Source of the DNA: Clostridiales bacterium
GTDB taxonomy: Bacteria; Bacillota; Dethiobacteria; Dethiobacterales; Dethiobacteraceae
NCBI GenBank assembly: GCA_018335855.1
Contig: JAGXRM010000037.1
Coordinates: forward strand, 1-64,000
Reading direction: 5' to 3'
DNA: 64,000 nucleotides
The position numbers and the translations under genes were made by a program. Positions 2,186 to 27,028 of the stretch are shown here, in pieces. Each line of letters opens with the position of its first letter. Positions within the stretch are counted from its first letter, which is position 1. Under the pieces are notes generated by a model. The model saw nothing but the letters and a program-made list of their open reading frames with translations, was not told where the DNA came from and made no database searches.

Positions 2186-2246
2186 ATTCTCACTTCCTTT
2201 TTCTATCATTAAGTTATCATCGTATCGTAAATACGGATCAAAGTTT

Positions 2247-2461
2247 TCATTTTTTATAGAAACGACAATTCAGTTCGTGCAAAGCAAGCAGCGGACCCTG
2301 ATCATAAGTTTCACCTGGATACAGCTTTTTCATTTCGAAGAATCTGTCCAGCATCCAAGGAATGGTGTCTTCTTGCCCTCTGAAGCCAAGAATCAGACAA
2401 ACTACTGACTGCACATAAGGGCTTCGGATATCAGCATACTGTTCCTTTAGCACCGGAGAAT
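2247..2461 (-). pseudogene. C-terminal fragment of an unidentified helical protein
   Basis: About 70 residues read cleanly to a stop at 2247 and include helical stretches such as VQSVVCLILGF and TIPWMLDRFFEMKK, which suggest the last alpha-hairpins of a HEAT-like repeat protein. There is no convincing ribosome site at the internal ATG (2453), and upstream the frame runs into a fragment of a different family at about 2461. I read it as the 3' end of a gene lost by deletion. Confidence 0.4.
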
Positions 2462-2599
2462 AGTCTTTTTTACTCTATCATCCCAATTATCAGTAAGTTT
2501 ATTGATTCCATCAACGGCACGGTGATAAGTTTCTAAAGTATCAATTCTAGTGTTTAAGGTCAGGTTTTTGATAATCCGCAACCATTTTGTTAAAGAATC
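2462..2599 (-). pseudogene. DUF262-like fragment
   Basis: A minus-strand frame without a start codon reads DSLTKWLRIIKNLTLNTRI followed by LETYHRAVDGINKL. This resembles the helical region of DUF262-family proteins, where a WMRxxxNLxxNT block is followed by an RAxxxINxL block. It is joined at both ends to unrelated fragments, so only about 45 codons survive. Together with its neighbours it shows at least two deletion junctions within 400 bp. Confidence 0.4.
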
Positions 2600-6489: not shown

Positions 6490-6590
6490 ATTTGTGTTTT
6501 TAGTAAATATTTTTTAATTCACGGTACACTTCGCTGACATCATGGAAACATTAATAACTATTTCCACCATAGATCACAACGGTTAAACTA

Positions 6591-6651
6591 CATCTATCCT
6601 GTCTCCACAACCTATACAAAAATGGCCGTTATCTAATATGTCAACTCAACC
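6591..6651. repeat. Second copy of the 930-990 repeat array
   Basis: Contains GTTGACATATTAGATAACGG and GGAGACAGGATAGATGTAG (minus-strand reading) joined by a TATACAAAAA linker, matching 930-990 with scattered differences and in the same orientation. Region 6490-7110 holds no credible gene; it is made up of this array, an inverted repeat, an attachment-site copy and another repeat array. Confidence 0.5.
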
Positions 6652-6700
6652 CTCTCACAATCAATGCCGTTGACCTGTTCCCACACATAACAAAAATAGG

Positions 6701-6761
6701 GCTTTCCAGTCAAACTGCCGCCAGCTATTTTTATAACATTAAGCAGCAAACACTGGAAAGC
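6701..6761. repeat. Inverted repeat GCTTTCCAGT
   Basis: A perfect 10-bp inverted repeat (6701-6710 and 6752-6761) with a 41-bp loop. It lies just beyond the duplicated rlmD 3' end and may be the original rlmD terminator or a small element's ends. No T-run clearly favours either. Confidence 0.4.
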
Positions 6762-6796
6762 TCTTTATTACCGGGTTTCTTCATCTATCATTTTCA

Positions 6797-6830
6797 ACCC
6801 TTGACATCAATACTACCGTCTCCACGTGGC
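6797..6830 (-). repeat. Putative attachment site, duplicated rlmD 3' end (distal copy)
   Basis: This 34-bp stretch matches 29033-29066 with one mismatch (6823). Read on the minus strand it encodes the residues HVETVVLMSRV, the C-terminus of RlmD, and runs on in frame to a TGA. Such duplication of a gene's 3' end is the signature of an integrative element inserted there; the intervening 22 kb is the presumed island. Confidence 0.75.
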
Positions 6831-6875
6831 ACGAACCGTTCATTTTGATGTCTAGACTGTAGTTTAGCATATTTC

Positions 6876-7082
6876 CGTCGAAGGAAATATGTCCACGCTG
6901 TTTTTCACATTCTGTACGTTCGCGGGAATATGTCCACGTTTTTAGGTCGAGTGCTCAATTTGGATGTTTTCCCAAATGTAAAATGGCTCAAGAGGACATC
7001 ATTGATGATTTGCAAGCTGTCCGTTCTCGGAAACATATCCACGGTATTTTTTACACTAAAGGTAGACGGGAACATATCAACA
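6876..7082. repeat. Four degenerate CGGGAAYATRTCCACG repeats
   Basis: Copies lie at 6876-6897, 6921-6938, 7026-7043 and 7064-7082, all in one orientation and most followed by a T-rich run. They resemble the rlmD coding sequence just beside the attachment site (GCGGGAACATGTCCAC at 29073-29088). The first copy also forms a perfect CATATTTCC/GGAAATATG hairpin (6868-6891). They may be leftovers of successive integrations or transposase-binding repeats of a lost insertion sequence. Confidence 0.6.
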
Positions 7083-7110
7083 TAAAAATATGTACGGATA
7101 TTTCTTGCAT

Positions 7111-8550
7111 TTAAGCCATATCTTTAATGTATTCAAAATTCATTATGCAAATCATATATAGTACAGATGGCAGTATGCCTTCCTGCAATGCAATATAGCT
7201 TATACTTGCATTTTGCTGCAAAAATCCTTTCTCATCTGTTGTAGTATGGAGAGGATTCCTCTTTTGCATATCTTTCTTCACCAGTTTGCACAATCGTTTC
7301 ATTTCAAATGGAGGGATCTGATTTACTTTCTTTATAATAGTTTCCTTAGAAACCACATCATCAGATAATGCATTAAATATACCTATAAATTTCTCAAGAT
7401 CTTGACTTGGTAATTGGTAATTGCAATAATAGGTCTTTACTTTGCATTCTAATCTTCTCCATAGTGTATCTACTTTTTCACATTGGAATAGTTTCTTTGG
7501 AAAATGAGTCTCAATAAACGCTCTGTCTTTTTCATCATAATAATAAAAAATTACTTTTGATAGTTTCTTATTATTTAGTATGGCATCGAAAATGTGTGCA
7601 TCATTGTTTGGGGACATCCCAATAAGAGCCAATTCTCCTTGTATTTTGCTGAAATTATCAAAATAGTATTCTGTTGCCATATTCAATTCCGGATGTGAGA
7701 TTTTCGTCATAATCATGCTATATTCTAAAGGTTTTTCTTCTTTTAACCTTCCTACCTGAAATTTGAATGTCTCATCATTCGCATACCTGTCAGCAAAAAT
7801 TTCAGACTCCTGAATTAAGCGATGACTATCACTTATGACTTTATATTTTAGTCTACCACTATAATTTAAAAGGGCATTGCAAAAACAATGTTGCATATCT
7901 TCGAAAGCAACTGTTTCTCCAGCTTTCTTTCTAATATATCCCAAAACGTTATTTTCATTTTCGCTATTTGCTAATACTGAAAAATCACCATGCAGGTGAT
8001 AAACTACTTTCTCAGTTAAATTCTCAATATTATTATCATAATTCAAGGTATATATATTATCAAAGGATTTGAAAAAACGTCTAACTTTTTTATATTTTTT
8101 CATTTCGTTATAAACCTCTTGAATATTACCGCCATTAAAGATTGCATCAAGTATTAAATGTTCAAATCCTTGTATTGCGGACTTCCTAGTTTCCTCCAAA
8201 TCGAAATTTTTCAAAAAGAACATATGAACAACAAAAAACCAATCTTCGAGCATTATATCATGTGCATTGTTTATAGTTGTATCATATCGACCTTTAAAAT
8301 CCTTTAATGCGTCTAAAGAATCATCATCTTTAGCAAAAGAATCATACTCGCATTCACGAATTTTGTTAGCTGCTTCAACGAAATTTTCTAATATATTGAC
8401 TATTTCATTTCCTGTAAGTTTATCTCCAAACAACTTATCATAACAATCAAGTTTAGCTCTATATTTTATTCTCTTCATAATAAAATTACTGCTGTATGCA
8501 ATCCCACCAAAGTGAATATTTACACCATTTCCTAATAATAAATTTTTCAA
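7111..8550 (-). CDS. SIR2/AbiH-like protein
   Basis: The N-terminus MKNLLLGNGVNIHFGG has the glycine-rich GNG turn of the SIR2-like/AbiH fold. Conserved partner motifs follow: NIYTLNYDNN at about residue 167, VVYHLHGDF at about 183-190, and LALIGMSPNNDAHIF at about 310-325. In known anti-phage proteins such domains bind and hydrolyse NAD+ or act in abortive infection; which applies here is not shown. The C-terminal 110 residues are helical and unrecognised. The start is taken as the TTG at 8550, eight bases after AGGAGG; a GTG at 8559 overlaps that ribosome site. The gene follows a HEPN-domain gene by 44 bp, probably in one transcript. AT content is far higher than in the core genes. Confidence 0.7.
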   Translation of the reverse strand: MKNLLLGNGVNIHFGGIAYSSNFIMKRIKYRAKLDCYDKLFGDKLTGNEIVNILENFVEAANKIRECEYDSFAKDDDSLDALKDFKGRYDTTINNAHDIMLEDWFFVVHMFFLKNFDLEETRKSAIQGFEHLILDAIFNGGNIQEVYNEMKKYKKVRRFFKSFDNIYTLNYDNNIENLTEKVVYHLHGDFSVLANSENENNVLGYIRKKAGETVAFEDMQHCFCNALLNYSGRLKYKVISDSHRLIQESEIFADRYANDETFKFQVGRLKEEKPLEYSMIMTKISHPELNMATEYYFDNFSKIQGELALIGMSPNNDAHIFDAILNNKKLSKVIFYYYDEKDRAFIETHFPKKLFQCEKVDTLWRRLECKVKTYYCNYQLPSQDLEKFIGIFNALSDDVVSKETIIKKVNQIPPFEMKRLCKLVKKDMQKRNPLHTTTDEKGFLQQNASISYIALQEGILPSVLYMICIMNFEYIKDMA

Positions 8551-8594
8551 AATATACACCTCCTATCACCGTTGTTAATCTTCACAACATCTCA

Positions 8595-9077
8595 CTATTC
8601 TATTTTCCATTTGGAGTTATTAATAATCTCATATAATATTTTAATTATTTTAGGTGTATAACTTTCAAATATTATGGTCCAAGTTCCTACTTCTGCAAAA
8701 GGAAGAGCTTTACCATTAGAATCTTCTAAACAATATTGATATGCATCTTTGTGTGTCATTATATTTCTTATGCTTCGAATACCAGATCCTTTGTTTGCTA
8801 GAAATTCATAATCTTCCTCAGATAAAATGTTTTTGTTTTTCAAATCGGACAAATCCTCTAAAAAGTTTTGATTATAATTTTCTCTTACAGATTTACAGAT
8901 TAACTCCATCGTATTAAACAAAACTAATATAGCTGCATAATCTTCCTCATTATCATGTAAACGAAGTGCAGTAAATAACATGTCGCCATAGTAGTGTGAA
9001 TATTGCCAAATTTCATCTATCATCTCATTCATAAAATTATCTGCCCCTTCAACTAAATGACTTCTTCTATCCGACAT
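8595..9077 (-). CDS. HEPN-like domain protein (candidate RNase or toxin partner)
   Basis: A 160-residue, all-helical protein with R104-N-I-M-T-H109, the Rx4H signature of HEPN RNases, preceded by GSGIRSI. HEPN domains act as metal-independent RNases in toxin-antitoxin and abortive-infection systems. The gene lies just upstream of the SIR2/AbiH-like gene, so the two form a likely pair. The start codon at 9077 lacks a clear ribosome site; instead a GTTGCT/AGCAAC hairpin sits directly before it. A 29-codon frame without a start (ending YEQR at about 9080) lies just upstream and may be a relic of another gene. Confidence 0.65.
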   Translation of the reverse strand: MSDRRSHLVEGADNFMNEMIDEIWQYSHYYGDMLFTALRLHDNEEDYAAILVLFNTMELICKSVRENYNQNFLEDLSDLKNKNILSEEDYEFLANKGSGIRSIRNIMTHKDAYQYCLEDSNGKALPFAEVGTWTIIFESYTPKIIKILYEIINNSKWKIE

Positions 9078-9195
9078 TATTAACGTTGCTCATAAGCAAC
9101 ATTAAGCACATCTGCGATGCTGACATTCTTTTTTTTCACATAACAGTCATACTCGTTATAAATCTAAATCCATTTACTCCCATGGAGCAAAAGTA

Positions 9196-10887
9196 TCACC
9201 CTAGCAACTCATGTATCCTTTCCACAAGTATTGCTTTTCTTGCATCATAAAACGCTTCAAAATCTTCAATTTCAAGTGAAGCATTCTGCGGAACCATAGC
9301 CTGTTTACAAAATTCGATTTTTTGCCCATCATTCATATCATTGTAATAATCAATTAACCTCATATCATTTTTACTGCCGTTACTTCTACCTTCAAGCAAA
9401 TGTAAATTAGGCAGTCGATTGCGCATTCCACGCCATCTTTTCCAATCTGCTATTGCAACTGAAACGGGTTTACTTTCATTGAACCTGTTATCTGGATGAA
9501 GATGATCTTGTTCATATTTGAAGCTTTTATTTGTCCAATCAAGGTTCAAGTAGTAAAGAACTTCTCCAGCAACTCTGCTTCCTTTTTCTGTGTTAAGAAC
9601 ATCTTCAATTTTTCCATCTGTGACTCTCAAATCATTCATCTGATCGAGCATTTCAATAGTAATTTCATAGTCAAAACTATTGATATTACTCTTCATCTGT
9701 TGCAGCTTACCTGTAGTACCGGATTGGAAATAAGTAAAGAATATCGCCCTAAGTAAATAAGCACGAACACCCTTAATGTTTTTATCGTAATCAGTATTAT
9801 AGTAAATATAATAGATAATCGGCAAAAGCACGTTCCAACTACTTGAAAAACGGCTTACATCAATTTTCATTTCCTTGAGTAGACTTTCTAAATTTGTCAG
9901 TGCTTTCTTGAACCCGTTCCAATCGTTTTTCATATCCTCTGCTATTTTTTTGTTAATGTTGGATTTTACAACATCGCCATACAGCATCAGAGCAGAACGT
10001 ATAATAAAGTCCGAACCAAATCCTTCATATGAATCAACAAGAATTTTTCCAAACTCAGTTTTTGCACTTGGCCAGTATGCCTCGAGAATTGACATTGTTA
10101 TTTCAGATTTACGCAACGCTTTACCGCCGCTATTAAACCTTACAAACATCTCAAGAGCATCATCTTGTTTCATATCTGTAATTTCCGTATATCTAACCAG
10201 TTTTTCGACGAAAATCTTTTTATACAACTTTTTCAGAATATTTCTAGCGTAATCCTTGCTATCTGCTGGAACATTCACTATGGCTTCTTCAATTGCTTTT
10301 TCTCTTGTGGTTTCATCCTGGTATTTCTTATTAAGAATGTTTTTTACCTCAAACTGGGTCGGACTCAATTTCCCAACCTTATCACTAAAAGTAATGTCGA
10401 ATTTTTTGGTGTTGTATTCTTGCTCATCAACAGAAATCTTATGTTTGTTCAGTTCTACCAGTAGTTTGGTTACAATTCTATCACCATTCTTCTTTCTTGC
10501 GTAATTTGGACGGATGTATGCTTCTCCAAATAATGATAAAAAAAGTGATGTTAGCCTTTGCTGTCCATCTAGTACAGCCGTATCTGTATTCTTAAGGTTG
10601 ATGCTCATCAACCCATAGTTGACACTGTCTGCCTGTTTTCTATTATCGAATGTAACCTCTGATAAAAACCCACAAAAGTATGTATCCCATGTCACATTGG
10701 AGTCATCAACGTGCCAAAATAGAAATGTAGCAATAGGATAATCCAACAAAATAGAATCCCATAGTTTTTCAATTTGCTCCATTCCCCAAACAAATTGTCT
10801 TTGAAATGCAGGCATTACATATTTTCCGTCTTTGATGCTTTGTAAAGCTTCATAAATTGTTATGCTGCTATCTATTAAGTTGCTCAT
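9196..10887 (-). CDS. DUF262/DUF1524 protein, GmrSD-like nuclease family
   Basis: The N-terminal DUF262 domain is a ParB/Srx-like NTP-using fold. It shows YVMPAFQRQFVWG at about residue 25-35, the diagnostic DGQQR at 107-111, and MFVRFNSGGKALRKSEI. The C-terminal DUF1524 domain has an HNH-type nuclease core: YEQDHLHP at about 460 and RLPNLHLLEGRSNGSKN at about 490. This is the arrangement of GmrSD, a type IV enzyme that cuts glucosylated hydroxymethylcytosine DNA, although the family is broad and the substrate here is unknown. The start at 10887 follows GAGAGGTG. Length (563) fits the family and no lesion is visible. Confidence 0.85.
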   Translation of the reverse strand: MSNLIDSSITIYEALQSIKDGKYVMPAFQRQFVWGMEQIEKLWDSILLDYPIATFLFWHVDDSNVTWDTYFCGFLSEVTFDNRKQADSVNYGLMSINLKNTDTAVLDGQQRLTSLFLSLFGEAYIRPNYARKKNGDRIVTKLLVELNKHKISVDEQEYNTKKFDITFSDKVGKLSPTQFEVKNILNKKYQDETTREKAIEEAIVNVPADSKDYARNILKKLYKKIFVEKLVRYTEITDMKQDDALEMFVRFNSGGKALRKSEITMSILEAYWPSAKTEFGKILVDSYEGFGSDFIIRSALMLYGDVVKSNINKKIAEDMKNDWNGFKKALTNLESLLKEMKIDVSRFSSSWNVLLPIIYYIYYNTDYDKNIKGVRAYLLRAIFFTYFQSGTTGKLQQMKSNINSFDYEITIEMLDQMNDLRVTDGKIEDVLNTEKGSRVAGEVLYYLNLDWTNKSFKYEQDHLHPDNRFNESKPVSVAIADWKRWRGMRNRLPNLHLLEGRSNGSKNDMRLIDYYNDMNDGQKIEFCKQAMVPQNASLEIEDFEAFYDARKAILVERIHELLG

Positions 10888-10924
10888 CCTCGCACCTCTC
10901 AATCACAAAAACTTGATTATTTTG

Positions 10925-11249: not shown

Positions 11250-12221
11250 TCAACTTATAACAGCTTCGTCCGCTCCTGTCGGCAATACTAAATATGAAGT
11301 AGGTTGCATTAGCCAACTGTCGGATTCAATAACTGTCTTTGCCGGGTTTCGGATAATGGTTGGTGCATATCCAGGTTGTGCAGCCTTTTCGGCATTTATT
11401 AGGTATAGATAGTATTTATCACCATATAGCGTTGCTACTTCAATCTCATTCTTTGACCAGTAAAAATGAGGCTGACCTACAAAGGACTTGACCTCAATAA
11501 AGCGGTCATACTGAACAGATGCGTCCTCCTCAAATGAAACTATGTCATATCCAGCAGAAACATCGATACCCGAAATACGCTTAATCTTTTCAGCAAGTGC
11601 TGTGCTCAACAAGCGAGCCTTTTCATATCCCACCACATACTCCTCAGCGGCTTCACCTTGAAGGTCCTGAAGTTCCAGCTGCTTTTTCAACGCATCGAGG
11701 GACATTTTCCGTTTTGCCTTCTTTTGAACCTTGGTAAAGATGGTTTCATAATATTCGCTGATTTCCAAGGAACCAGAGCCATCCCGTAGCTCTGACAGCG
11801 CGTTAAGCTGTATAAGAACATTCCTGAAAACGGCGGAGGCAATTGGGAATCCATGCCTCTGAATGTAGTATGTACCCTTTGCGGCATCAAAACGCAAGGC
11901 ACTGATATCGATAATTCCATCGGCAGTTACCTTGTTAAGGCAAGCTTCGCATAAGGCTTCCTCAAAACCATCACAGAGCAACAAATAGAGTTTTTTCCCA
12001 TCTTCAGTTGGTCTCAGTGAGTCTACAGAAATCTCGATGAACCCCAAATATTCAAAAAAGGCAACTGCACCGTTGAAATTAATTCTTATGCCGTCGACAA
12101 ACGAACATATCTGCCGTGCTGAGTCTCTCAATATTTTGTCACTCTTGAGGACTGTGCCGGCAAAGTACATGATTCCACGGGAGTCACCTATGGTGTTACT
12201 TCGCCTTAGATCTTCTTGCAT
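11250..12221 (-). CDS. DUF3883 protein, putative PD-(D/E)XK nuclease-like
   Basis: The C-terminal 110 residues match DUF3883 (NOV C-terminal domain): ISGIDVSAGYDIVSFEE, then RFIEVKSF with the E-x-K pair, WSKNEIEVATLYGDKYYLYL and a distal segment. The D...ExK spacing is that of the PD-(D/E)XK fold. The domain often occurs with SNF2 or DEAD-box proteins in defence islands. The N-terminal 200 residues look like a winged-helix or helical adaptor and are not recognised. It overlaps the SNF2-like gene by 26 bp and is the last intact gene of the operon. Nuclease function is inference from the fold. Confidence 0.75.
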   Translation of the reverse strand: MQEDLRRSNTIGDSRGIMYFAGTVLKSDKILRDSARQICSFVDGIRINFNGAVAFFEYLGFIEISVDSLRPTEDGKKLYLLLCDGFEEALCEACLNKVTADGIIDISALRFDAAKGTYYIQRHGFPIASAVFRNVLIQLNALSELRDGSGSLEISEYYETIFTKVQKKAKRKMSLDALKKQLELQDLQGEAAEEYVVGYEKARLLSTALAEKIKRISGIDVSAGYDIVSFEEDASVQYDRFIEVKSFVGQPHFYWSKNEIEVATLYGDKYYLYLINAEKAAQPGYAPTIIRNPAKTVIESDSWLMQPTSYLVLPTGADEAVIS

Positions 12222-14163
12222 AGTCCCTCAACACCGCCTTTATATCGTCATCTCCACCCTCCTCAAGGCTGTTGTCAAAGAGCGGGATAGGCATACTCTC
12301 AATAATCTCCAGCAACCTACGCTCCTTTTCAGCAAGCCGTTCGTGGATTGTCAAGTCCACGGAATCTGCAGACAGCAAGTAATAATAATTGGTAACGACA
12401 TCTTCACCAAGCCCGTATCGGTGAATCCTGTCCTTCGATTGCAGAAAATGGGCAGCGTTGAAAGAACGCTCCAAGTAGATGGCATTGTGACAAGCTTTGT
12501 GGAGCGAGATTGATTCCGCAACCGCAAACGGGTTGGCGATTATAACATTATATGGACAGTCCGCTCTATGGAATTCCCGGACTATAGATTCTCGAGTAAT
12601 GGAATACTCCTCATCATCCTCGCTTATTCCATCGCCAGCTACTGGAGTCGCACCATATAGGATTCGCGACTCAATACCTTGCAAGTGCAGATAATCCTGC
12701 AACATTTCAATATTTTTTATATAGCAAGCCCAGACTATTGCCTTTTCGCCGCGGGCAATAATGCGCTGGAGAATATCCCTGACGGCGATGTACTTTGCTG
12801 GAGTTTCGGCATCCGAATAGCGCAGTATTTCATTAAGCATTGCAGTGTCGTCCTGAACCATACCAAAGTCAACATCCTCAACCAATGCGAATTCTGACAA
12901 AGGTTGGCGTAAGAGTGCAGGGTTTGAGGATGCCTGCATCAGGCGAATAAGCCTTGCCCTTACCAATTCATTCTGGAATCGCTGGTCTTTGCTGCTTGCA
13001 ATATCGAAGATATACTTCTTCTCAATATAGTCGTATATCCGCCGTTGACTTTCGCCCATCTCCACCATTACTGGCGGGTTGTTTGTAGCGGGAGGTATGC
13101 CAAGGTCGCTCTTCCTAATCCTGATAAAGAACGGGGAGATAGAATTCAGCAACGAATCTACCCTTGGGTCGTTTTGTGTCCTCGACATATCCTTCAGCTG
13201 ACCAATGTGGAAACGGATGATTTCTTTCGTTGGCCAGATGAACTTGAATAAGTTATATAAGTCCTCGTATCCATTAGGTGCAGGCGTTCCCGTAAGGACA
13301 ACCCGAGCTTTGCTGTCTTGTGCCAATGACATTATATTTTGGGCAATGATTCCGCCATTCGTATTCTTGATTTTATGAGCCTCATCAAGCACTACCATTA
13401 CCCTATGTTTCCGTAGAAAAAATCCTAGTTCATCGGCAATTGACATTACTGACGCATAGGAGATGAGTGTAAGTTCGGACGGGTTGTTGTCGTACAAATA
13501 CTGCTTTTTCGCATCTATTTGTAGTTTTCCTGTGAGCCGCTTCGATGCTGGCTTTACGCCAAAGCACTCCTCAAATTCCAGCTCCCAAGGCCCAAATGCG
13601 TTGAGTGGGCCAATAATCAGTAACTTGTTGACTTTCCGGGGATGTCCTTCCGGCAGGTTCTTCAGGTATACATAAGCTCCGTAAACAATACTTGTTTTCC
13701 CAGCGCCTGGGACGGAGAAATTGCAGGCATTCTGTGAAAATGCCATATGATATGCTGAAAGCATCTGTAAGCTATAAAGGGTTCTGGAAGGCATATGTGC
13801 TACGAGGGCATCGCGGAATGATTGAAACTCATGCACATTGCAGTCGTTGTTCCGAATTGCAAGAGCTTTCGCTGAAAACTCAGCAAACTTGCCCTCCTCC
13901 TCAATGTAAGACCGTATACCTTCATTCGCTTCACCAGAGAGTTCTACATCGCATTTAGCATATACGGCCGCTGTCCGTACCCTATCGATACTCTTGTTCA
14001 AGCTGTCGGCGATAGAAATATAAACCACACCGTCAGAGAGGGTATAGTCCGTATTATCCTTAAGAAAGCGAGTGGCACGTCTGCTTTCTAAGAGCTGCCC
14101 AACATCCCCAGTGACTATGAGTTGATTGTCGGCTATATTTGAATCAATGCGTAACACACCCAT
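12196..14163 (-). CDS. SNF2-type DNA translocase
   Basis: An SF2/SNF2 ATPase: Walker A in VPGAGKTSIVYGAY (about residue 153), LLIIGPLNAFGPW (motif Ia), the DEAH box in VVLDEAHKIKN (about 260), VVLTGTPAPNGYEDLYNL (motif III), and C-lobe motifs ending SKDRIHRYG (motif VI, arginine finger). The first 140 residues are a family-specific N-terminal domain. Such translocases move along DNA and often power restriction or remodelling. The frame opens at a TTG at 14178, but the ATG at 14163 behind GGTGGG is preferred. It directly follows the ParB-like gene and overlaps the DUF3883 gene. All motifs needed for ATP hydrolysis are present. Confidence 0.85.
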   Translation of the reverse strand: MGVLRIDSNIADNQLIVTGDVGQLLESRRATRFLKDNTDYTLSDGVVYISIADSLNKSIDRVRTAAVYAKCDVELSGEANEGIRSYIEEEGKFAEFSAKALAIRNNDCNVHEFQSFRDALVAHMPSRTLYSLQMLSAYHMAFSQNACNFSVPGAGKTSIVYGAYVYLKNLPEGHPRKVNKLLIIGPLNAFGPWELEFEECFGVKPASKRLTGKLQIDAKKQYLYDNNPSELTLISYASVMSIADELGFFLRKHRVMVVLDEAHKIKNTNGGIIAQNIMSLAQDSKARVVLTGTPAPNGYEDLYNLFKFIWPTKEIIRFHIGQLKDMSRTQNDPRVDSLLNSISPFFIRIRKSDLGIPPATNNPPVMVEMGESQRRIYDYIEKKYIFDIASSKDQRFQNELVRARLIRLMQASSNPALLRQPLSEFALVEDVDFGMVQDDTAMLNEILRYSDAETPAKYIAVRDILQRIIARGEKAIVWACYIKNIEMLQDYLHLQGIESRILYGATPVAGDGISEDDEEYSITRESIVREFHRADCPYNVIIANPFAVAESISLHKACHNAIYLERSFNAAHFLQSKDRIHRYGLGEDVVTNYYYLLSADSVDLTIHERLAEKERRLLEIIESMPIPLFDNSLEEGGDDDIKAVLRDYARRSKAK

Positions 14164-14178
14164 ATTTTTCCCACCCAA

Positions 14179-15465
14179 CTATTGTAATATTTCACCATAC
14201 TCCTTCACTTTCTTCCCAATTTCATCAAGGTATTCCTTGACTCCGGGATCATCTTTGAAAGAGTCTTGACTGGTATCGACCGCAGATATAGCCGCCCATG
14301 CCTTCTGAAGCAGCTTTATAGGTTCTGCAGCTTGTTGCTTGTTATTTAGTTTATCGCGCGAGCGTTGGAAATTCTCATTTAGCTTTTCGCCGATAGCATC
14401 CTTCCAAGCATTATCCCTTGCACGGAGTAGGCGTCCAACATCTGCTCCGGGATTCTCTCGGATAATGTCATCAACGGATTTCTCGTTAATTCCCTCAACC
14501 GCCTCAAAATGAGCATCTGTGAATTGCTGCCAAATTTCTTCATTTGAGAAGAAACTGGCATCCGTGTTATTTTTGCTCGGTTTCCTGATAATGTCACGAA
14601 AGTCCTGCTGATCCAAGCCCAAACGGATGTAATCAAAGGCAATACTCTTTAGGTCTGAAACATCCGCTTCAACGTCATAACCCCACATCTTAGAAACCCC
14701 ACCAGCGGCATAGCCACGCAAAGCACTATCCAACTTTTGGAAAGAGTCCTCCCTTGTATCGAGAACCGTATATATCCCCGTGTAGCCGTAAGTATCCAAA
14801 TATTCATCCATCATCTTAAGGACATCTATGTACATCTTAACGTCTGCAAGTTTAACACCCATAAAGTTAGCAATTTCATTGTTAGAAAAGCCCTCACTCG
14901 CCAAATCGCCTGCCTTGAGGTACTTTTCTATGGGACCGTAGTCAACTTTGGCATCCTCACCCATCTGGTACGTAGTCTCGAGGCGTAGGATTTCTTTTCT
15001 GTCCGCATCTATCGGGAGAATGATGGCTTCGAAGAACTGAGCATGCTGTTTGAGGTTAGCAGCAATACTGTCATCGCGCCAAATGTTGTTTAGCAAGCTG
15101 GCGCGGCGGTTTCCGTCAATGATTTTCCCGTCGGCAGTAACAATACCATATCGCTGCTGATGGTCTTCGAGTAGACTCTTCTTTGTCCTCTCGTTTGCCT
15201 CTTTCTTTGACTCCCACAGAAATTTCTCAATAAGAACAATGTCGTTAGAGTTGTCAGGGTCGAGCGCATGGTTTTGGCGTTCATATGACTTGACCACACT
15301 GCCTATTCGCCCATTGTATGGGTTGTAAGTCAGGATGCTTAACGGAATCCGATAGGCATTGAACGTTGTCCGTTCTCCGTGGTATGTGAGCGTTATCCCT
15401 GTCATACAGGGAGTGGTTGTTTCCTGAATCCTTTTGAGTTCAGATTTTCTTTGTTCTGCGTTCAT
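14179..15465 (-). CDS. ParB/Srx-like domain protein
   Basis: The N-terminal region carries a ParB/sulfiredoxin-like nuclease domain: PLSILTYNPYNGRI near residue 42, then VTADGKIIDGNRRASLLNNIW with DGNRR at 117-121, the equivalent of the ParB GxxR or DndB DGQHR box. A helix-turn-helix follows (SEGFSNNEIANFMGVKLADVKMYIDVL, about 195-220), as in ParB. The C-terminal 200 residues are helical. ParB-like proteins bind DNA and CTP or other nucleotides; in restriction cassettes they can act as regulators or loaders. The 4-bp overlap with the upstream gene implies translational coupling. The exact role in this operon is unknown. Confidence 0.75.
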   Translation of the reverse strand: MNAEQRKSELKRIQETTTPCMTGITLTYHGERTTFNAYRIPLSILTYNPYNGRIGSVVKSYERQNHALDPDNSNDIVLIEKFLWESKKEANERTKKSLLEDHQQRYGIVTADGKIIDGNRRASLLNNIWRDDSIAANLKQHAQFFEAIILPIDADRKEILRLETTYQMGEDAKVDYGPIEKYLKAGDLASEGFSNNEIANFMGVKLADVKMYIDVLKMMDEYLDTYGYTGIYTVLDTREDSFQKLDSALRGYAAGGVSKMWGYDVEADVSDLKSIAFDYIRLGLDQQDFRDIIRKPSKNNTDASFFSNEEIWQQFTDAHFEAVEGINEKSVDDIIRENPGADVGRLLRARDNAWKDAIGEKLNENFQRSRDKLNNKQQAAEPIKLLQKAWAAISAVDTSQDSFKDDPGVKEYLDEIGKKVKEYGEILQ

Positions 15466-16406
15466 TGACTATTCCTCCCGTTATAGTAGTTTATTATATC
15501 GCCGATAGAGCCAAGTGTCTGAAGATTAAGCAGGTAATTGGAGCATCGCTCAATTTTATTTAGGTCTGACTGACGGGCTACCCATCCTGCACCATCGACG
15601 ACATTGACAAAGCCAATGTGTTGCTTCGGTGGCATCTTCGAGTTTAGCTCCCTAATCTTTATCGCTTTAGCTTCAGCTCGTTCAGCATATCTTGTTTGCG
15701 CACTTGACGTAGTTATTCCATAGGTGATATCTATGAGCAACTTAGGATTAGATTCATCAGGAATAGCAACACTGACCACTTTTCCTACAATAGGAACATT
15801 CTTCTTAATTGCATATGTTAATCCCGTTGCTTCGCACCCTCGTATGATGGCATCTGATGCGCACTTGAAAAAGCTATCTCCGATTCTATTGTTGTAATTG
15901 CCTTCCAAACCCTTCTTGACCAACCTGCGAATATCATCAGGGCTTGCAAGCCGGCCAAGCGTCGAGGCATCAATCTGGAAGTTCTCAAGGTAATACGCCG
16001 GAATAAGAGACTTATATTTATCCAACGTTGCGCCTTTCATTAGTAAGTCACAAATCTCATTCATAAATGCGGAGCTTGAAACCATTTGCTCCCGAACTTT
16101 TGAAAGCGACCACTCGGATGTAGGCATGTGCCTTTTTTGAATGCGAAGCATTGTGATAATACGCTTAAATTTTTCTTCCGAAATATTAAGCAAGCTGGTA
16201 ATCCGATCAAGAGATTCTCTATCATCGCCGATATACTTCTTCAAACCATCAGAAGTAGCTATTCCCAATAACCGCGTCTGGAGTTCATTTACACTGGCAG
16301 ATACGCTGTCAGCGTACTGTTTCTCAAGGGTAGTGTCTATGTAGAACATAGTCGCTGATTTTATGAACTCCTCTACCGTAAGTGCCTTAGGTTTTTGCTG
16401 TGTCAT
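15462..16406 (-). CDS. Candidate type II restriction endonuclease-like protein
   Basis: No family is certain. Residues 1-215 are mostly helical. The C-terminal 100 residues look like a restriction-enzyme core: KLLIDITYG with Asp226 at the end of a beta strand, a helix with YAERAEAKAIKIRE, then HIGFVNVVDGAGWVA (about 265-277), which resembles the strand-and-turn VTDGxGW seen near the end of DpnII/MjaIII-type enzymes. It sits directly after the cytosine methylase with a 4-bp overlap, the usual place for the cognate nuclease. GGAGG precedes the ATG. It could instead be a non-nuclease subunit. The catalytic D...ExK cannot be placed with certainty. Confidence 0.55.
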   Translation of the reverse strand: MTQQKPKALTVEEFIKSATMFYIDTTLEKQYADSVSASVNELQTRLLGIATSDGLKKYIGDDRESLDRITSLLNISEEKFKRIITMLRIQKRHMPTSEWSLSKVREQMVSSSAFMNEICDLLMKGATLDKYKSLIPAYYLENFQIDASTLGRLASPDDIRRLVKKGLEGNYNNRIGDSFFKCASDAIIRGCEATGLTYAIKKNVPIVGKVVSVAIPDESNPKLLIDITYGITTSSAQTRYAERAEAKAIKIRELNSKMPPKQHIGFVNVVDGAGWVARQSDLNKIERCSNYLLNLQTLGSIGDIINYYNGRNSQ

Positions 16407-17761
16407 TGTTTTGCGCCTCCACTCATTACAGAAATGTATTGTGCCGCCAATCGCTCACTGACCGCTTCTATCACAGGTACGCAGACAGTGTTTCCAAGCA
16501 AGTCAAAGCCCTGTTTTTTTCCCTTTTGAGTATCTTCGAAATCACATAATCTATAATCTTCAGGGTATCCAAAAAGCCTAAGCCCTTCGCGCAGAGTCAA
16601 TTTTCTAATTCCGCAATTATCAATAACTCCAATTGTCGACATGTCCATCGCTACTAGCGTGGGGGTAACAGCTTGAGGATTTAGAATTCGACTAAATTCA
16701 AAACTCAGCTTTCCTGTTACTATGTTATATCCCATTGGCTTCGTCACGTCTGGAATGCGCTCATATAATGTTCTGTCAGGTGTAGAATTTTCACTTTCTA
16801 CTCTCTTTTTGGGATGCTCCAAAACTAAATACCCCTGTTCGACCAGTTTGTCTAACATTGTCTGCAAGTCTTCAACATTATGAAACGTGCGTATTTGCTC
16901 GGCCGTCAAAGGCATGCCATCCATCCAGTCAATCCCTATTTTTTCAGCCCAATGTCTTTTTCTCCGCTCCAACAATAGGGCATTAAGCAAGGTTTGTTCT
17001 TTTTGGGTTACATGCCCCCTTATGCCAATATCCCAACTATGAATGTTGTTTTCTCCACCACGCTTGTCCTTTATAGCCTTGCCATATAATTCTTCTGGCT
17101 TATACTTTTTAAATAACTTTTGCGCAAACTCCCCATTCAAAGTTTTTCCCCCAGCTTCCATAACGTCAGCAAAAGTGGATCTTGTCTGTGGAAAGTTTTC
17201 CAAGGATACCTTACCTTTTTTTGTACCCACAATGTATATACGCCTTCTGGCTTGGGCTAATCCGAAATTTTGGGCGTCCAGGATATCCCAAGTAACCGTG
17301 TAGCCTAATTCTGTCTCCAGCTTATATAGTATTGCTTTTAATGTTCTTCCAGGCTTCACTGTGTTGTGTTCCAAGTCGTGAACAACTAAGCCCTCCACGT
17401 TTTCGAGCAAAAAACCATATGGGTTCTTATCTTTGAGAATTCTCTCAATTTCAAAAAAGAGCGTCCCGCGTGTATCCGCAAATCCACGCTGTTTTCCAGC
17501 GACGCTAAATGCTTGGCAAGGAAAACCACCCAGCAAAAAATCAAAATCAGGTATGTCTTCAGATTTGATTTTCGTAATATCCCCGTTAATGTGGTGTTCG
17601 TTAAAGTATTTTTTATAAACACTAACCGCCGACTCTTTAATTTCGGATGTGAGAACGCACTCTGTTTTATAACCTGCCTGTCGAAAGGCTTGCTCGAAAC
17701 CAAGACGTATGCCACCCATTCCGGCAAACAAATCTATGAAACGTACAGTCTTATTCATCAT
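16403..17761 (-). CDS. DNA (cytosine-5-)-methyltransferase
   Basis: Transfers a methyl group from S-adenosylmethionine to C5 of cytosine in a specific DNA site. All main motifs are present: I (IDLFAGMGGIRLGF, about residue 9), IV with the catalytic Cys (GGFPCQAFSVAG, about 79), VI (GFLLENVEGLV), VIII (QARRRIYIVGT), IX (LTLREGLRLFGYPEDY) and X (LLGNTVCVPV). The variable region between VIII and IX, about 200 residues, is the target-recognition part. At 452 residues it is a typical single-chain enzyme. It overlaps the XRE regulator by 11 bp. Its start codon abuts a hairpin that covers the ribosome site. Protection of self DNA from an associated nuclease is the expected role. Confidence 0.95.
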   Translation of the reverse strand: MMNKTVRFIDLFAGMGGIRLGFEQAFRQAGYKTECVLTSEIKESAVSVYKKYFNEHHINGDITKIKSEDIPDFDFLLGGFPCQAFSVAGKQRGFADTRGTLFFEIERILKDKNPYGFLLENVEGLVVHDLEHNTVKPGRTLKAILYKLETELGYTVTWDILDAQNFGLAQARRRIYIVGTKKGKVSLENFPQTRSTFADVMEAGGKTLNGEFAQKLFKKYKPEELYGKAIKDKRGGENNIHSWDIGIRGHVTQKEQTLLNALLLERRKRHWAEKIGIDWMDGMPLTAEQIRTFHNVEDLQTMLDKLVEQGYLVLEHPKKRVESENSTPDRTLYERIPDVTKPMGYNIVTGKLSFEFSRILNPQAVTPTLVAMDMSTIGVIDNCGIRKLTLREGLRLFGYPEDYRLCDFEDTQKGKKQGFDLLGNTVCVPVIEAVSERLAAQYISVMSGGAKQ

Positions 17762-17999
17762 GGAGGCTTGCCTCCGTTACTGAGCTATTATGACTGCCCT
17801 CATCAACGATATCCATTATGTCACCGACGTTGCAATTTAGAGCTGTACATATTTTAGCGAGTATCGCCGTAGTTACATTTTCATTCCGCCCAAGTTTGGC
17901 AATTGTTACCGCACTAATGTTAGCCGCACTCTGTAGGTCTTGCTTCTTCATGTCTCTATCTATTAATAATTTCCATAACTTTTTATAATTAACTTCCAT
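17751..17999 (-). CDS. XRE-family regulator (controller-like)
   Basis: An 82-residue helix-turn-helix protein. The DNA-binding core is MKKQDLQSAANISAVTIAKL (about residues 17-36), followed by NVTTAILAKICTALNC and a short acidic tail. Size and layout fit small Cro/CI-type proteins such as controller (C) proteins that time methylase and nuclease expression. It is the first gene of the operon and overlaps the methyltransferase gene. The start follows GAGGAGATAG. Likely binding sites are the paired TAAGCTAT motifs upstream (18082-18110). Controller function is inferred from position. Confidence 0.8.
   Translation of the reverse strand: MEVNYKKLWKLLIDRDMKKQDLQSAANISAVTIAKLGRNENVTTAILAKICTALNCNVGDIMDIVDEGSHNSSVTEASLHDE
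17762..17775 (-). promoter_or_regulatory. Ribosome-site hairpin before the methyltransferase gene
   Basis: Minus strand GGAGGCAAGCCTCC immediately precedes the ATG at 17761. GGAGG is the ribosome site and pairs with CCTCC across a CAAG tetraloop, so translation would depend on opening the hairpin, for example by ribosomes finishing the overlapping regulator gene. Confidence 0.65.
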
Positions 18000-18174: not shown

Positions 18175-18223
18175 TTGACAAACTTCCCACCTCAGTGTTA
18201 ATATGTATATGAACATATTAACA
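18175..18223 (+). promoter_or_regulatory. Promoter with palindromic operator for the XRE/ImmA operon
   Basis: TTGACA (18175-18180), 18-bp spacer, TAATAT (18199-18204). A perfect 11-bp inverted repeat, TGTTAATATGT and ACATATTAACA (18196-18206 and 18213-18223), covers the -10 box and probable start point. This is the expected autorepression site of the XRE protein. The ribosome site AGGAGGTG follows at once. Confidence 0.85.
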
Positions 18224-18235
18224 GGAGGTGTACAA

Positions 18236-18619
18236 ATGGAAGAAGATAAATTGTCGTTCGGTGCTTTTGTAAGGGCAAAGCGTGAGGCCTTGGGTAAGTC
18301 CCTTAGGAGTGTTGCCGCAGATATCGATATGGCCCCGGCATATTTGAGTGATGTCGAGAAAGGTAATAGGTGGCCACCAGTTAAGTATCTTGAGACGCTT
18401 GCCGAAGTCCTTGGAATTACAAAAGAGGATGAGCTAAGCTTGTTCTACGACTTGGCAGGGGAAATCCGTGAAGGTAGCTATCCAGACCTGACCGATTATA
18501 TCGGCAAAACTGACATTGCCCGCGTAGCCCTACGAAAAGCGAGGGATCACAATATATCCGAAGAAAAATGGCAGCAGTTCATTGATGCTATTATTATAAA
18601 GGAACAAAAAGGAGATTAA
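18236..18619 (+). CDS. XRE-family transcriptional repressor
   Basis: A 127-residue regulator with an N-terminal helix-turn-helix: FGAFVRAKREALGKSLRSVA, then DIDMAPAYLSDVEKGNRWPP (about residues 7-46). The C-terminal part is helical and probably serves dimerisation or contact with the protease encoded next. Paired XRE and ImmA/IrrE genes typically control mobile elements: the protease cleaves the repressor after a signal such as DNA damage. The start is placed at 18236 behind AGGAGGTG rather than at an upstream ATG at 18203 that lies inside the operator. Confidence 0.85.
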   Translation: MEEDKLSFGAFVRAKREALGKSLRSVAADIDMAPAYLSDVEKGNRWPPVKYLETLAEVLGITKEDELSLFYDLAGEIREGSYPDLTDYIGKTDIARVALRKARDHNISEEKWQQFIDAIIIKEQKGD

Positions 18620-18622
18620 AAC

Positions 18623-19348
18623 TTGAAACTGAATTACGGACAAGAACCCAACGGTATGTACAAGTTGAATAAAACAGATTTCGACGACATTGCACTATCG
18701 TTGTTGAGGGAGCATCTTGCAACCGTTGTTGAAAGCCCACGTGAGGTAGATATTAATCACCTTATAAAAGACTGTTTATATCTTGATGTTTATAGCAAGC
18801 ACCTTTCTGCTGACAAATCAGTTTTGGGATTGGTGGCTTTCGAGGACACGACTATACCTTGCTATGACTTACACTATAATCCGATTTCAGTTGATATTGT
18901 TGCTGGTAATATTGTAGTTGACTTGTCACTTAGCGGCCAGCGGCAACTTCCCAGGAGACGTTTCACCCTAGCGCACGAACTGTCTCACTGGGTGCTTCAC
19001 CGCAGCTACCATTCTCCCACCAATCAGGTGTTTGCTCTAAAGAAGGTGGATTATTTACCGTGCGGAGATGCAGATATTGCTATAAAAAAAAAGACATTAA
19101 AGACGGATTCTGACAAAGAAGAGTGGCAAGCAAACTCCCTTGCGGCGGCTATCCTCATGCCCAAGTTTGCCTTCCTTAAGTGTGCGCATCAGGAGATAAG
19201 GCGACAATATGGTGCTTATACATCCTCTATCATCGATAAGGATGATCCAGAACGGTACAGGTCCACAGTTGAGAATATCGCAGGGGTCTTCAACGTGTCG
19301 TTTCAGGCAACTGAGATACGCCTTGACCAGTTTGACCTCATTATTTAG
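18623..19348 (+). CDS. ImmA/IrrE-family metallopeptidase
   Basis: A gluzincin-like protease with H118-E119-L-S-H122 in FTLAHELSHWVLH, the zinc-binding HExxH of the family, and a downstream conserved block EEWQANSLAAAILMP that supplies the third ligand. It probably cleaves the XRE repressor encoded 3 bp upstream, releasing the element's genes. The start is TTG at 18623 behind AAGGAG; this fits the short gap. The two genes are co-transcribed from the operator-controlled promoter and end at a strong terminator. Length 241 is normal. Confidence 0.85.
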   Translation: MKLNYGQEPNGMYKLNKTDFDDIALSLLREHLATVVESPREVDINHLIKDCLYLDVYSKHLSADKSVLGLVAFEDTTIPCYDLHYNPISVDIVAGNIVVDLSLSGQRQLPRRRFTLAHELSHWVLHRSYHSPTNQVFALKKVDYLPCGDADIAIKKKTLKTDSDKEEWQANSLAAAILMPKFAFLKCAHQEIRRQYGAYTSSIIDKDDPERYRSTVENIAGVFNVSFQATEIRLDQFDLII

Positions 19349-20744: not shown

Positions 20745-21060
20745 ATTATCCCTTGCAGTTACGGAATTGAAGCGTTGCGGTGAAGCTCTGATCGGCATAT
20801 CAGATTCACTGGTTGGCTTGTTCAGCAACAATGAGGATTCCCCGGCTGCGGATCGGCCAATAGCAGATACGCCTGAACCGAAGGAAAACCCAATCACCCT
20901 TGAAGCGGTCAGGGCAGTTCTTGCAGAAAAGAGCCGAGCCGGACATACCGCCGAGGTCCGTGAGTTGCTCGAAAAGCATGGCGCCGGGAAGCTCTCGGAG
21001 ATCGACCCTTCAGAATATTCGGTGCTCCTTTCAGAAGCCGAGGTGCTGGGAAATGGGTAA
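20728..21060 (+). CDS. Small phage-type protein, unknown
   Basis: A 110-residue protein. The N-terminal half is a helix (LSLAVTELKRCGEALIGISD), then a proline-rich linker, then ITLEAVRAVLAEKSRAGHTAEVRELLEKHG, a pattern seen in small proteins upstream of DUF2800 in phage replication modules. The start follows GGAAGGAGG. It overlaps the DUF2800 gene by 8 bp, implying translational coupling. Function unknown. Confidence 0.65.
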   Translation: MSKMSELSLAVTELKRCGEALIGISDSLVGLFSNNEDSPAADRPIADTPEPKENPITLEAVRAVLAEKSRAGHTAEVRELLEKHGAGKLSEIDPSEYSVLLSEAEVLGNG

Positions 21061-22165
21061 ACACGCTCTCCTTTCAGCTTCCTCATCCCACAGGTGGCTG
21101 AACTGCCCACCATCCGCAAGGCTCAGCGAGAGTTTTAAGGATAAGGTCAGCAACTACGCAGCGGAAGGCACTGATGCACACACACTTTGCGAGTATAAGC
21201 TTAGGATTGCGCTTGGCATTCCAGCCAAAGATCTTACCGCCAACCTTACCTACTTCAACGAGGAGATGGAGGAATGCGCCACCGGCTACACCGCTTACAT
21301 CCTTGAACTGGTAGAAGAGGCAAAGCAAAAATGCGTCGACCCGGTTGTCCTTATCGAACAGCGACTTGACTTCTCAAGGTATGTTGAGGGCGGTTTCGGC
21401 ACAGGTGACTGTGTGGTCATCGCAGACGGGACGCTCCACATTGTGGACTACAAGCACGGTCAAGGCGTCCTAGTGGAAGCTGAGGATAATCCACAGATGA
21501 AGCTGTATGCACTCGGCGCCTTAGAAATCTTCGATGGCATCTACGACATAGATACGGTTTCCATGACCATATACCAGCCCCGCCGAGACAACGTTTCAAC
21601 CCATACGGTATTCAAAGAATCCTTGTACCAATGGGCAAATGAAGACCTGAAACCAACTGCAAAACTCGCATACGCCGGTGAAGGTGAATTCAGTTGCGGC
21701 GAATGGTGTCAATTCTGTAAAGCAAAGCACGACTGCCGCGCCAGAGCCGAACGCAACATGGAGCTCGCCACGTACGACTTCGAGCTTCCACCGCTGCTTG
21801 CTGACGATGAGGTCGAGGATATCCTTGGAAAAATCGACGACCTGATTTCTTGGGCATCGGACATCAAGGACTACGCCCTGCAATCAGCAGTCAGCGGGAA
21901 ACATTGGAAAGGCTGGAAGTTGGTCGAAGGACGATCCAACCGAAGATACACAGATGAAACCGCAGTTGCTGAAGCCGTCAGTGGTGCAGGCTTTGATCCA
22001 TATGAACACAAGGTTCTTGGTATCACCGCCATGACCTCACTGATCGGCAAAAAACGATTTGAAGAAGTCCTCGAAAGCTACATTGAAAAGCCACGAGGAA
22101 AACCAACGCTCGTGCCGGAGGGCGATAAACGACCGGCAATCCATACTGCACAACATGAATTTTAA
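21053..22165 (+). CDS. DUF2800 family phage protein
   Basis: A 370-residue member of DUF2800: HALLSASSSHRWLNCPPSA at the start, EGTDAHTLCEYKL, GGFGTGDCVVIADGTLHIVDYKHGQG with the D...ExK-like DYK of a RecB/PD-(D/E)XK nuclease core, and a CxxC...C cluster (CGEWCQFCKAKHDCR) typical of an iron-sulfur or zinc site at the C-terminus. The family is probably a RecB-like exonuclease in phage replication or recombination. The start is the ATG at 21053; a longer frame overlapping the previous gene is unlikely. Confidence 0.85.
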   Translation: MGKHALLSASSSHRWLNCPPSARLSESFKDKVSNYAAEGTDAHTLCEYKLRIALGIPAKDLTANLTYFNEEMEECATGYTAYILELVEEAKQKCVDPVVLIEQRLDFSRYVEGGFGTGDCVVIADGTLHIVDYKHGQGVLVEAEDNPQMKLYALGALEIFDGIYDIDTVSMTIYQPRRDNVSTHTVFKESLYQWANEDLKPTAKLAYAGEGEFSCGEWCQFCKAKHDCRARAERNMELATYDFELPPLLADDEVEDILGKIDDLISWASDIKDYALQSAVSGKHWKGWKLVEGRSNRRYTDETAVAEAVSGAGFDPYEHKVLGITAMTSLIGKKRFEEVLESYIEKPRGKPTLVPEGDKRPAIHTAQHEF

Positions 22166-22178
22166 GGAGGAAAATCAA

Positions 22179-22757
22179 ATGTCCAATAATGCAAACAAAT
22201 CAGTCAACAATCCTATGAAGGTTATCACCGGTCCCGACACCCGCTGGTCTTACGCCAACATCTGGGAAGCCAAATCCATCAACGGCGGCACACCAAAATT
22301 CTCAGTATCGCTGATTATCCCCAAGTCCGACACCCGCACTTTAGCAAAAATCAAGGCTGCGATTGAAGCTGCCTACCACGAGGGCGAAGCAAGACTGAAA
22401 GGTAACGGAAAATCCGTACCGCCTCTTTCTACTATTAAAACTCCTCTGAGAGACGGCGACACCGAACGCCCTGATGATCCCGCTTACACCAATTCCTACT
22501 TCATCAACGCTAACTCCGCAACTGCGCCAGGCATAGTCGATGCCGACCGTAATGTCATCATCACCCGCTCTGAGGTTTACAGCGGTGTATACGGAAGGGC
22601 AAGCATCAACTTCTACGCCTTCAACAGTAACGGTAACAGGGGCATCGCTTGCGGACTGAACAATCTGCAGAAAATCCGCGACGGCGAACCACTCGGTGGC
22701 AAGTCCAAGGCTGAGGACGATTTCTCCACCGAACTTGATGAGGATTTCCTCTCGTGA
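22179..22757 (+). CDS. DUF2815 family phage protein
   Basis: A 192-residue protein of the DUF2815 family, thought to be a single-stranded DNA-binding protein of phage replication modules because it is always found between DUF2800 and the DNA polymerase. Conserved stretches include VITGPDTRWSYANIWEAK, SVSLIIPKSD and YGRASINFYAFN, with an acidic tail (EDDFSTELDEDFLS) like those of SSB proteins. The ATG follows AAGGAGG. The stop overlaps the GTG of the polymerase gene. Confidence 0.85.
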   Translation: MSNNANKSVNNPMKVITGPDTRWSYANIWEAKSINGGTPKFSVSLIIPKSDTRTLAKIKAAIEAAYHEGEARLKGNGKSVPPLSTIKTPLRDGDTERPDDPAYTNSYFINANSATAPGIVDADRNVIITRSEVYSGVYGRASINFYAFNSNGNRGIACGLNNLQKIRDGEPLGGKSKAEDDFSTELDEDFLS

Positions 22758-26677: not shown

Positions 26678-27028
26678 TATATTCTCCTCCATAATTCTTT
26701 GTATTTACAACTTCAAATTTATCACCGCATTAATTACATATACATTATAACAGAAATCGCATTGCAATTGTCTCAAACTATCCTAAAAACAGTTCCCCTT
26801 GAAATGCAAAAGTAAATTCCACCCATCCATTATCAATCTATGGAATTTAAACGTTCAAATCAGTATGTTGAATTTAATGCTGCAAATAATTTCTCTATGA
26901 CGCAATCTAAAATGAAAGGTGGGCGGAGCCGCGTCGCTATGCGACTTTAATCCCAAACGGGCCTAATGGGTATAATCATCTTTTAGATGATGTTACTCAT
27001 GCAGCTGGTGGATGAAAGGAGCACTAGC

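Follow-up and report, generated by a model that had tools for sequence, protein, structure and literature searches.

Positions 11250-17999 of a 64,000-nucleotide stretch of Clostridiales bacterium DNA (assembly GCA_018335855.1, contig JAGXRM010000037.1, positions 1 to 64,000; hereafter the window) carry six open reading frames (ORFs), all stop-free and all on the minus strand. They encode a small regulator, a DNA (cytosine-5) methyltransferase, a protein resembling restriction endonucleases (REases), a ParB-like protein, a SNF2-family ATPase and a NOV_C/DUF3883 protein. The reading that we favor, at odds only a little better than even (about 55%), is that this cassette is an ATP-dependent, motor-driven restriction-modification (RM) system carried by mobile, prophage-like DNA. 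The five enzyme genes are a real conserved unit and, judged from its sequences, the set would be an RM variant with a portable ParB-SNF2 engine that we have not found as a named system.

Gene order and conservation of the cassette

The first gene, at 17751..17999 (minus strand, like all genes of the cassette), encodes the XRE/HTH_26 small regulator (Pfam HTH_26, 2.9e-19). It overlaps by 11 bp the methylase gene at 16403..17761, which in turn shares 4 bp with the REase-like gene at 15462..16406; another 4 bp overlap joins the latter to the ParB-like gene at 14179..15465. At the far end, the SNF2 gene (12196..14178) and the NOV_C gene (11250..12221) overlap by 26 bp. These coordinates and open frames bear out an earlier note on this DNA, made from the letters alone, which had described six intact genes with overlaps of 11, 4, 4 and 26 bp. 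Its gap of only 15 bp between the ParB-like and SNF2 genes holds for a SNF2 start at the ATG at 14163 and fails for the full ORF, which opens at a TTG abutting the ParB stop (0 bp gap). The domain calls made there also hold: Pfam recovers DNA_methylase (6.9e-76, residues 7-438), SNF2-rel_dom (6.8e-22) and NOV_C (2.3e-13) in the respective proteins, the nuclease-like protein has weak DpnII and BanI matches, and the ParB assignment is upheld by a structural match to KorB and Spo0J.

To gather relatives, phages, plasmids, viral contigs and a set of one genome per species were searched, the query being the ParB protein, an alignment of it or the REase-like protein. The collection contains 24 complete five-enzyme loci, mainly from Bacillota metagenome-assembled genomes (MAGs), isolates and prophages, plus one Bacteroidetes MAG. 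In all 24, the REase-like, ParB, SNF2 and NOV_C genes stand in the same order on one strand; the methylase gene either leads them there, which is the window's arrangement, or lies at the opposite end in convergent orientation. Nearly all relatives also have an SNF2/NOV_C overlap close to 26 bp (23-38 bp), suggesting that the arrangement is more than chance. When distances between proteins are compared pair by pair, the five families track one another at r 0.92-0.98 (Mantel p 0.001), as expected for a jointly inherited unit, with shared ancestry of the loci contributing to these values. Thus, the five proteins are tightly co-conserved. The regulator is a less constant member of the cassette than the five enzyme genes. 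Homologues lie upstream of the methylase in loci L021, L031 and L036, and others, with 59-65% identity, precede a type III operon of the order Mod-Res-ParB-SNF2 in L026 and L027; it is probably a controller gene.

The methylase and its predicted site

The methylase has, by Pfam, the complete catalytic core that a cognate methyltransferase of a type II RM system should have. It is 51-57% identical to methylases located beside NgoBV-type REases, and the next best match in the plasmid collection reaches 38%. The only plasmid records with a methylase more than 50% identical are two from N. gonorrhoeae, one Geminocystis plasmid and one Acinetobacter plasmid, and in every one of them the methylase adjoins an NgoBV-family REase. 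We take this NgoBV-family pair to be the NgoAXV system, with the same GGNNCC specificity. NgoAXV of N. gonorrhoeae is listed as placing 5-methylcytosine (5mC) at GGNNCC (PMC6789123). Because the identity between the window methylase and the NgoBV-type methylases includes a conserved target-recognition region, the window enzyme is predicted to mark GGNNCC (5mC).

The methylase lineage is further tied to the NgoBV enzyme by locus L033, in which an intact NgoBV REase gene (7.5e-100; 1818-2570, plus strand) sits inside the cassette, between the methylase and the REase-like gene. The NgoBV endonuclease (PF09564) is absent from the window, and among the fetched relatives it is present only in L033. 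None of its family was found in the window's genome or in 398 genomes of the phylum, an absence that is weak since the controls also gave none.

Site avoidance was assessed by comparing the 16 palindromes of the form ABNNB'A' in cassette DNA. GGNNCC is the most depleted of the 16 in branch A cassettes (102 found versus 249 expected), the window itself having 2 versus 14.7 expected, whereas cassettes with other methylases show no depletion (105 found versus 114.5 expected). With codon-preserving shuffles, branch A contains 65 sites versus 110 expected (z -4.8), and the controls contain 37 versus 43. This avoidance is support for the predicted specificity rather than proof of it.

Proposed reader, clamp, motor and nuclease

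PDB sequence searches with the REase-like, ParB and NOV_C families returned nothing useful, and structure prediction was therefore used. For the REase-like protein, for which Pfam gives only sub-threshold matches to DpnII (7.7e-4) and BanI (1.2e-3), the AlphaFold model (pLDDT 90.8) has as its best PDB matches in Foldseek BsoBI (1dc1, 1.7e-5) and BstEII (9ibq, 2.8e-4), so that a type II REase fold is confirmed at the level of the model. The family alignment keeps E168, D226 and TTSSxQ, but its third strand lacks a conserved catalytic Lys (none follows D226), and there is no motif-I Asp. Thus, of the nuclease expected at 15462-16406, the fold is present, the canonical active-site triad was not found, and catalytic competence appears doubtful. 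The protein is presumed to be the reader of the unmethylated site.

The NOV_C protein is the other nuclease candidate. All 21 members of a diverse set of relatives have E193, D226, E243 and K245, and D226 together with the ExK motif (E243-V-K245, 11487..11495) makes up a complete PD-(D/E)XK sequence signature of the D...ExK type, in keeping with the earlier description of the DUF3883 protein as PD-(D/E)XK-like. On this motif, NOV_C is presumed to be the nuclease of the complex.

The ParB-like protein has no meaningful match in Pfam, NCBIfam or PADLOC. Its model (pLDDT 90.1), which shows a ParB N-domain, a KorB-like helix-turn-helix (HTH) region and long C-terminal helices, matches KorB (8qa9), Spo0J (1vz0), pNOB8 ParB and Noc in Foldseek with a probability of about 1.0, the HTH region included. 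G113, G118, N119, R120 and R121 are invariant in all 30 copies aligned, and the D of the DGNRR motif (residues 117-121, 15103..15117) is nearly so. The protein thus combines the predicted N-domain fold, the GxRR nucleotide motif and the HTH domain of the ParB/Srx superfamily, and the model points to a nucleotide-binding clamp of KorB/Spo0J architecture.

The SNF2 protein has intact PGAGKT, DEAH, LTGTP and QSKDRIHRYG motifs. Key residues of motifs I, II, III and VI are invariant in 19 of 19 relatives, including G158, G160, K161 and T162 of motif I (GAGKT, residues 158-162, 13693..13707). Its profile matches the eukaryotic remodellers DDM1, ISW1 and Chd1 in the PDB down to 5e-36, as well as an archaeal Snf2/Rad54 helicase; the Pfam ResIII match is only partial. 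From these motifs, it is presumed to be a double-stranded DNA translocase.

A motor-driven restriction enzyme appears to be the most economical model for these parts. The C5 methylase would mark self DNA at GGNNCC, as its homology suggests and the site avoidance supports, and the REase-fold protein would read the unmethylated site. Next to that site, the ParB-like clamp would load and would tether or license SNF2, a role suggested by its fold and by the constant pairing of the two proteins. SNF2, given its intact motifs, would then translocate on double-stranded DNA with ATP, and NOV_C would cut during or after translocation, to which its invariant catalytic residues and its apparent replacement in relatives point. 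We infer complex formation, the direction of action, the site specificity and the choice of cutting nuclease alike.

The main rival is a conventional type II RM system in which the REase-like protein cuts unmethylated GGNNCC, with ParB, SNF2 and NOV_C as accessories that process, resect or degrade the cut ends or remodel DNA so that sites are exposed. We consider it unlikely, though it is the alternative to be taken most seriously. It is favored by the REase fold itself, with BsoBI and BstEII as nearest structures, and is opposed by the family alignment, in which neither a catalytic lysine nor a motif-I acid is conserved. Several other observations weigh against the motor-driven model, and the first of them favors this rival: 21 of 23 REase-like copies have D226, and one of the exceptions, the L033 copy with Met in its place, sits beside the extra intact NgoBV REase, as though a lost activity had been made good. 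Cutting may therefore be the work of the REase-like protein itself. In addition, the GGNNCC avoidance is milder under codon-preserving shuffles, with CGNNCG also depleted (0.70), and the loci compared for it are related rather than independent. Lastly, no methylase was recognised in the flanking DNA retrieved for two ParB-SNF2 pairs (L003 and L028).

ParB-SNF2 loci, known systems and genomic surroundings

Beyond the five-gene unit, the ParB-SNF2 pair recurs in several other branches. In the Vsr branch (L051, L052, L054-L056 and L064), a Vsr-type or HhH-GPD gene and a longer C5 methylase accompany ParB, SNF2 and NOV_C; there is no REase-like gene, and NOV_C is found wherever the contig reaches, that is, in all but L055. 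In the N4/N6 branch, L068 has an N6_N4-family methylase followed by ParB, SNF2 and NOV_C, again with no REase-like gene. Thus, in these loci, NOV_C is the only remaining candidate for a cleaving nuclease besides the repair-type Vsr, and the retention of the module with no dedicated REase speaks against a conventional type II system. Other loci favor such a system by pairing the module with plausibly active REases: L069, which carries a methylase that is N6_N4-like by sequence together with ParB, SNF2 and NOV_C, has a BglII-type REase (1.2e-10), and the REase of L067 is of the Sau3AI type. The latter locus belongs to the PLD branch (L004, L006, L066 and L067), in which ParB and a PLD-SNF2 fusion occur with Sau3AI/MutH-type REases and C5 methylases. 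NOV_C was not found in these four loci, of which L066 reaches the contig end; it has apparently been replaced by the PLD domain fused to SNF2. A type III branch (L007 and L024-L027) has the order Mod-Res-ParB-SNF2, with Res next to the pair and no NOV_C.

The phylum sample of 398 genomes was scanned with a closer ParB alignment, the broad one being too diverse. Eight genomes, the window's included, have a ParB match at 1e-10; a methylase lies nearby in six of the other seven, and the seventh reaches a contig end. Together, the branches indicate that ParB-SNF2 loci almost always include a methylase and almost always a nuclease as well (NOV_C, fused PLD or Res), and that the REase may be present or missing. 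The translocating, methylation-sensitive restriction complex that the earlier note had thought plausible is thus supported as a reading by co-conservation, the REase fold and the DUF3883 motif, with two refinements: it is doubtful whether the nuclease-like protein is catalytic, and the module of ParB, SNF2 and a nuclease extends beyond cassettes like the window's, pairing with several kinds of RM system.

These loci also bear on an arrangement of two restriction activities that share one methylase, one of them a type II enzyme and the other a separate ParB-SNF2-NOV_C enzyme that would recognise its site through the methylase or through the HTH of its own ParB. L033, with an intact NgoBV REase and the whole quartet beside one methylase, fits this arrangement, as do L068 and the Vsr branch, where the module stands with no REase at all. 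We nonetheless find it improbable, since the REase-like gene of branch A is not seen apart from ParB-SNF2 and the REase-like protein co-diverges with ParB at r 0.975, which suggests one complex.

Two further features of the relatives may be recorded here. In L051, an HhH-GPD glycosylase-like gene (6546-7175, minus strand) stands where relatives have Vsr, which suggests that Vsr and HhH-GPD are interchangeable repair of 5mC deamination. Directly upstream of ParB, L067 (5561-8251) and L003 (5329-7938) encode a protein of 870-900 aa, with a sigma-70 region 4 match in L003.

The combination of ParB, SNF2 and NOV_C beside a methylase corresponds to no named system in PADLOC, NCBIfam, Pfam, PHROGs or the literature searched, which took in neither papers behind subscription nor the majority of preprints; the more recent DefenseFinder models were likewise outside the comparison. 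PADLOC recognises only pieces of the cassette (ZorD, DrmD and DpdE for the SNF2 core and PD-T4-1 for NOV_C) and no whole system. In the NgoBV/NgoAXV type II systems the methylase is alike, including its target-recognition region, but in the window another REase fold with ParB, SNF2 and NOV_C takes the place of the NgoBV REase. Closest in logic are CglI and NgoAVII, which combine a C5 methylase with a separate nuclease/reader and an SF2 motor; cleavage needs ATP hydrolysis, and translocation has been proposed (PMC4267653, PMC5737866). However, every part other than the methylase differs: the R protein of these systems combines PLD with B3 and a DEAD-Z1 protein serves as their motor (PMC4267653, PMC5737866), CglI lacks a ParB, and Pfam finds a methylase but no PLD or Z1 match among the window genes. 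Type I and type III systems share the proposed methylation-sensitive, motor-coupled logic, and some ParB-SNF2 pairs do lie in type III Mod-Res operons; the window, in contrast, has a C5 methylase in place of HsdS, HsdM, HsdR, Mod and Res, and no HsdR, HsdM, HsdS or Mod is among the Pfam, NCBIfam and PADLOC matches listed.

The likeness to DISARM consists of partial profile matches, with generic scores, to the SNF2-like DrmD and the C5 methylase DrmMII; there is no DrmB (DUF1998) and no DrmC PLD, and DrmA matches at 6.8e-4 over 79 residues only. Signatures of BREX, Dnd, Ssp and Zorya (PglZ-BrxC, DndCDE/FGH, SspBCD-E and ZorABCD) are lacking over the cassette genes, except for matches of the SNF2/helicase core to ZorD and BrxH. 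The profile scans thus agree with the earlier view that the layout differs from DISARM, BREX, Dnd/Ssp and type I/III systems. PD-T4-1, TmtA and PDC-S36 have the NOV_C/DUF3883 domain in common with the cassette (8.9e-18 to PD-T4-1), the match being confined to the C-terminal domain; to our knowledge they are not accompanied by comparable ParB, SNF2 and methylase proteins. In the related branch, the PLD domain fused to SNF2 is a match for PbeA of PbeABCD. Pbe pairs with phosphorothioation or occurs near solitary methyltransferases and includes an SMC-like PbeC and two small proteins, with ParB unmentioned (PMC6459918). An assignment of the PLD-SNF2 branch to Pbe was rejected, since the likeness stops at the PLD domain and PbeB-D differ. 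With KorB, Spo0J and Noc, the cassette ParB shares the predicted N-domain plus HTH fold and the R-R motif of the nucleotide site; it differs in having no ParA partner, an RM operon setting, a long helical C-terminus and a sequence too divergent for Pfam. ParB and SNF2 proteins are mentioned in other settings in BREX-related and Dnd papers (PMC12839542, PMC10853773), and none of the papers found places a ParB protein in a comparable restriction complex.

Divergent from the cassette, at 18203..19348 on the plus strand, lies an XRE repressor-like gene paired with an M78 metallopeptidase gene, resembling CapH/CapP or ImmR/ImmA (PADLOC capP 2.6e-16, capH 8.7e-5). About 20 related cassettes have such a pair, in three different arrangements, and it is absent from L034, L037, L053 and the Vsr branch. 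The pair may switch the RM operon in response to damage or may be the prophage repressor, and its membership of the cassette is uncertain. Adjoining the other end, on the minus strand, is a DUF262/GmrSD_N gene (9196-10902) with a full-length PADLOC HEC-05 match (2.2e-105), probably a separate defence gene; beyond it, at 7111-9077 (minus strand), a 482-aa protein weakly similar to PDC-S21 and its companion of 160 aa are possibly another defence unit. The genes at 7111-10902 were dropped as cassette members because genes downstream of NOV_C differ among the relatives listed.

On the plus strand at 20900-24274 are genes for a DUF2800 nuclease-like protein, a DUF2815 single-stranded DNA-binding protein and an apparently truncated DNA polymerase of 506 aa, followed by a transposase at 26987-28357; together they make up a decayed prophage-like element. 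Between it and the ribosomal genes, a 459-aa protein (29023-30402, minus strand) matches the phrog_11787 DNA methyltransferase (2.9e-174). The stretch at 30700-63582 (minus strand) holds host ribosomal protein, tuf, fusA, rpoC and rpoB genes; the phage RNA polymerase and elongation factor labels given by PHROGs at 51-64 kb were rejected, since size, order and neighbours point to host rpoB, rpoC, fusA and tuf. With phage replication genes adjoining and host core genes filling the right half of the window, the cassette is probably carried by a prophage-like insertion next to core genes.

This setting raises a further alternative, that the cassette serves the mobile element by modifying or organising prophage DNA (anti-restriction, partition or replication control), much as methylase-SNF2 dyads do in polyvalent phage proteins. 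Besides the neighbouring DUF2800, DUF2815 and DNA polymerase genes, the many viral contigs that carry relatives, the match of SNF2 to the phage helicase family phrog_62 (4.7e-57) and the known methylase-SNF2 dyads of phage polyvalent proteins (PMC5512222) argue for such a role. It is nevertheless very improbable: an invariant nuclease active site and a REase-fold partner would be unexpected for protection, and plasmid and chromosomal relatives occur outside any phage context, paired with classical REases.

ParB clamps are familiar components of chromosome and plasmid segregation. Recurrence of the ParB-SNF2 pair with several REases and methylases and with type III Mod-Res suggests that ParB-SNF2-nuclease is a portable restriction motor module. 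On the widest reading, which we put forward tentatively and with rather less confidence than the motor-driven model itself, the window would represent an undescribed class of RM system in which a nucleotide-switched clamp of the ParB type, rather than HsdS or Mod, couples site recognition to a double-stranded DNA translocase, the same engine having been grafted onto type II systems (5mC and N4/N6; NgoBV-, BglII- and Sau3AI-type) and onto type III systems. If this is true, a ParB clamp fixed beside SNF2 in several types of RM system would be a new coupling of site recognition to translocation. Such a modular family would predict which genes must act together, and many hypothetical proteins adjacent to methylases could then be annotated as one restriction engine.

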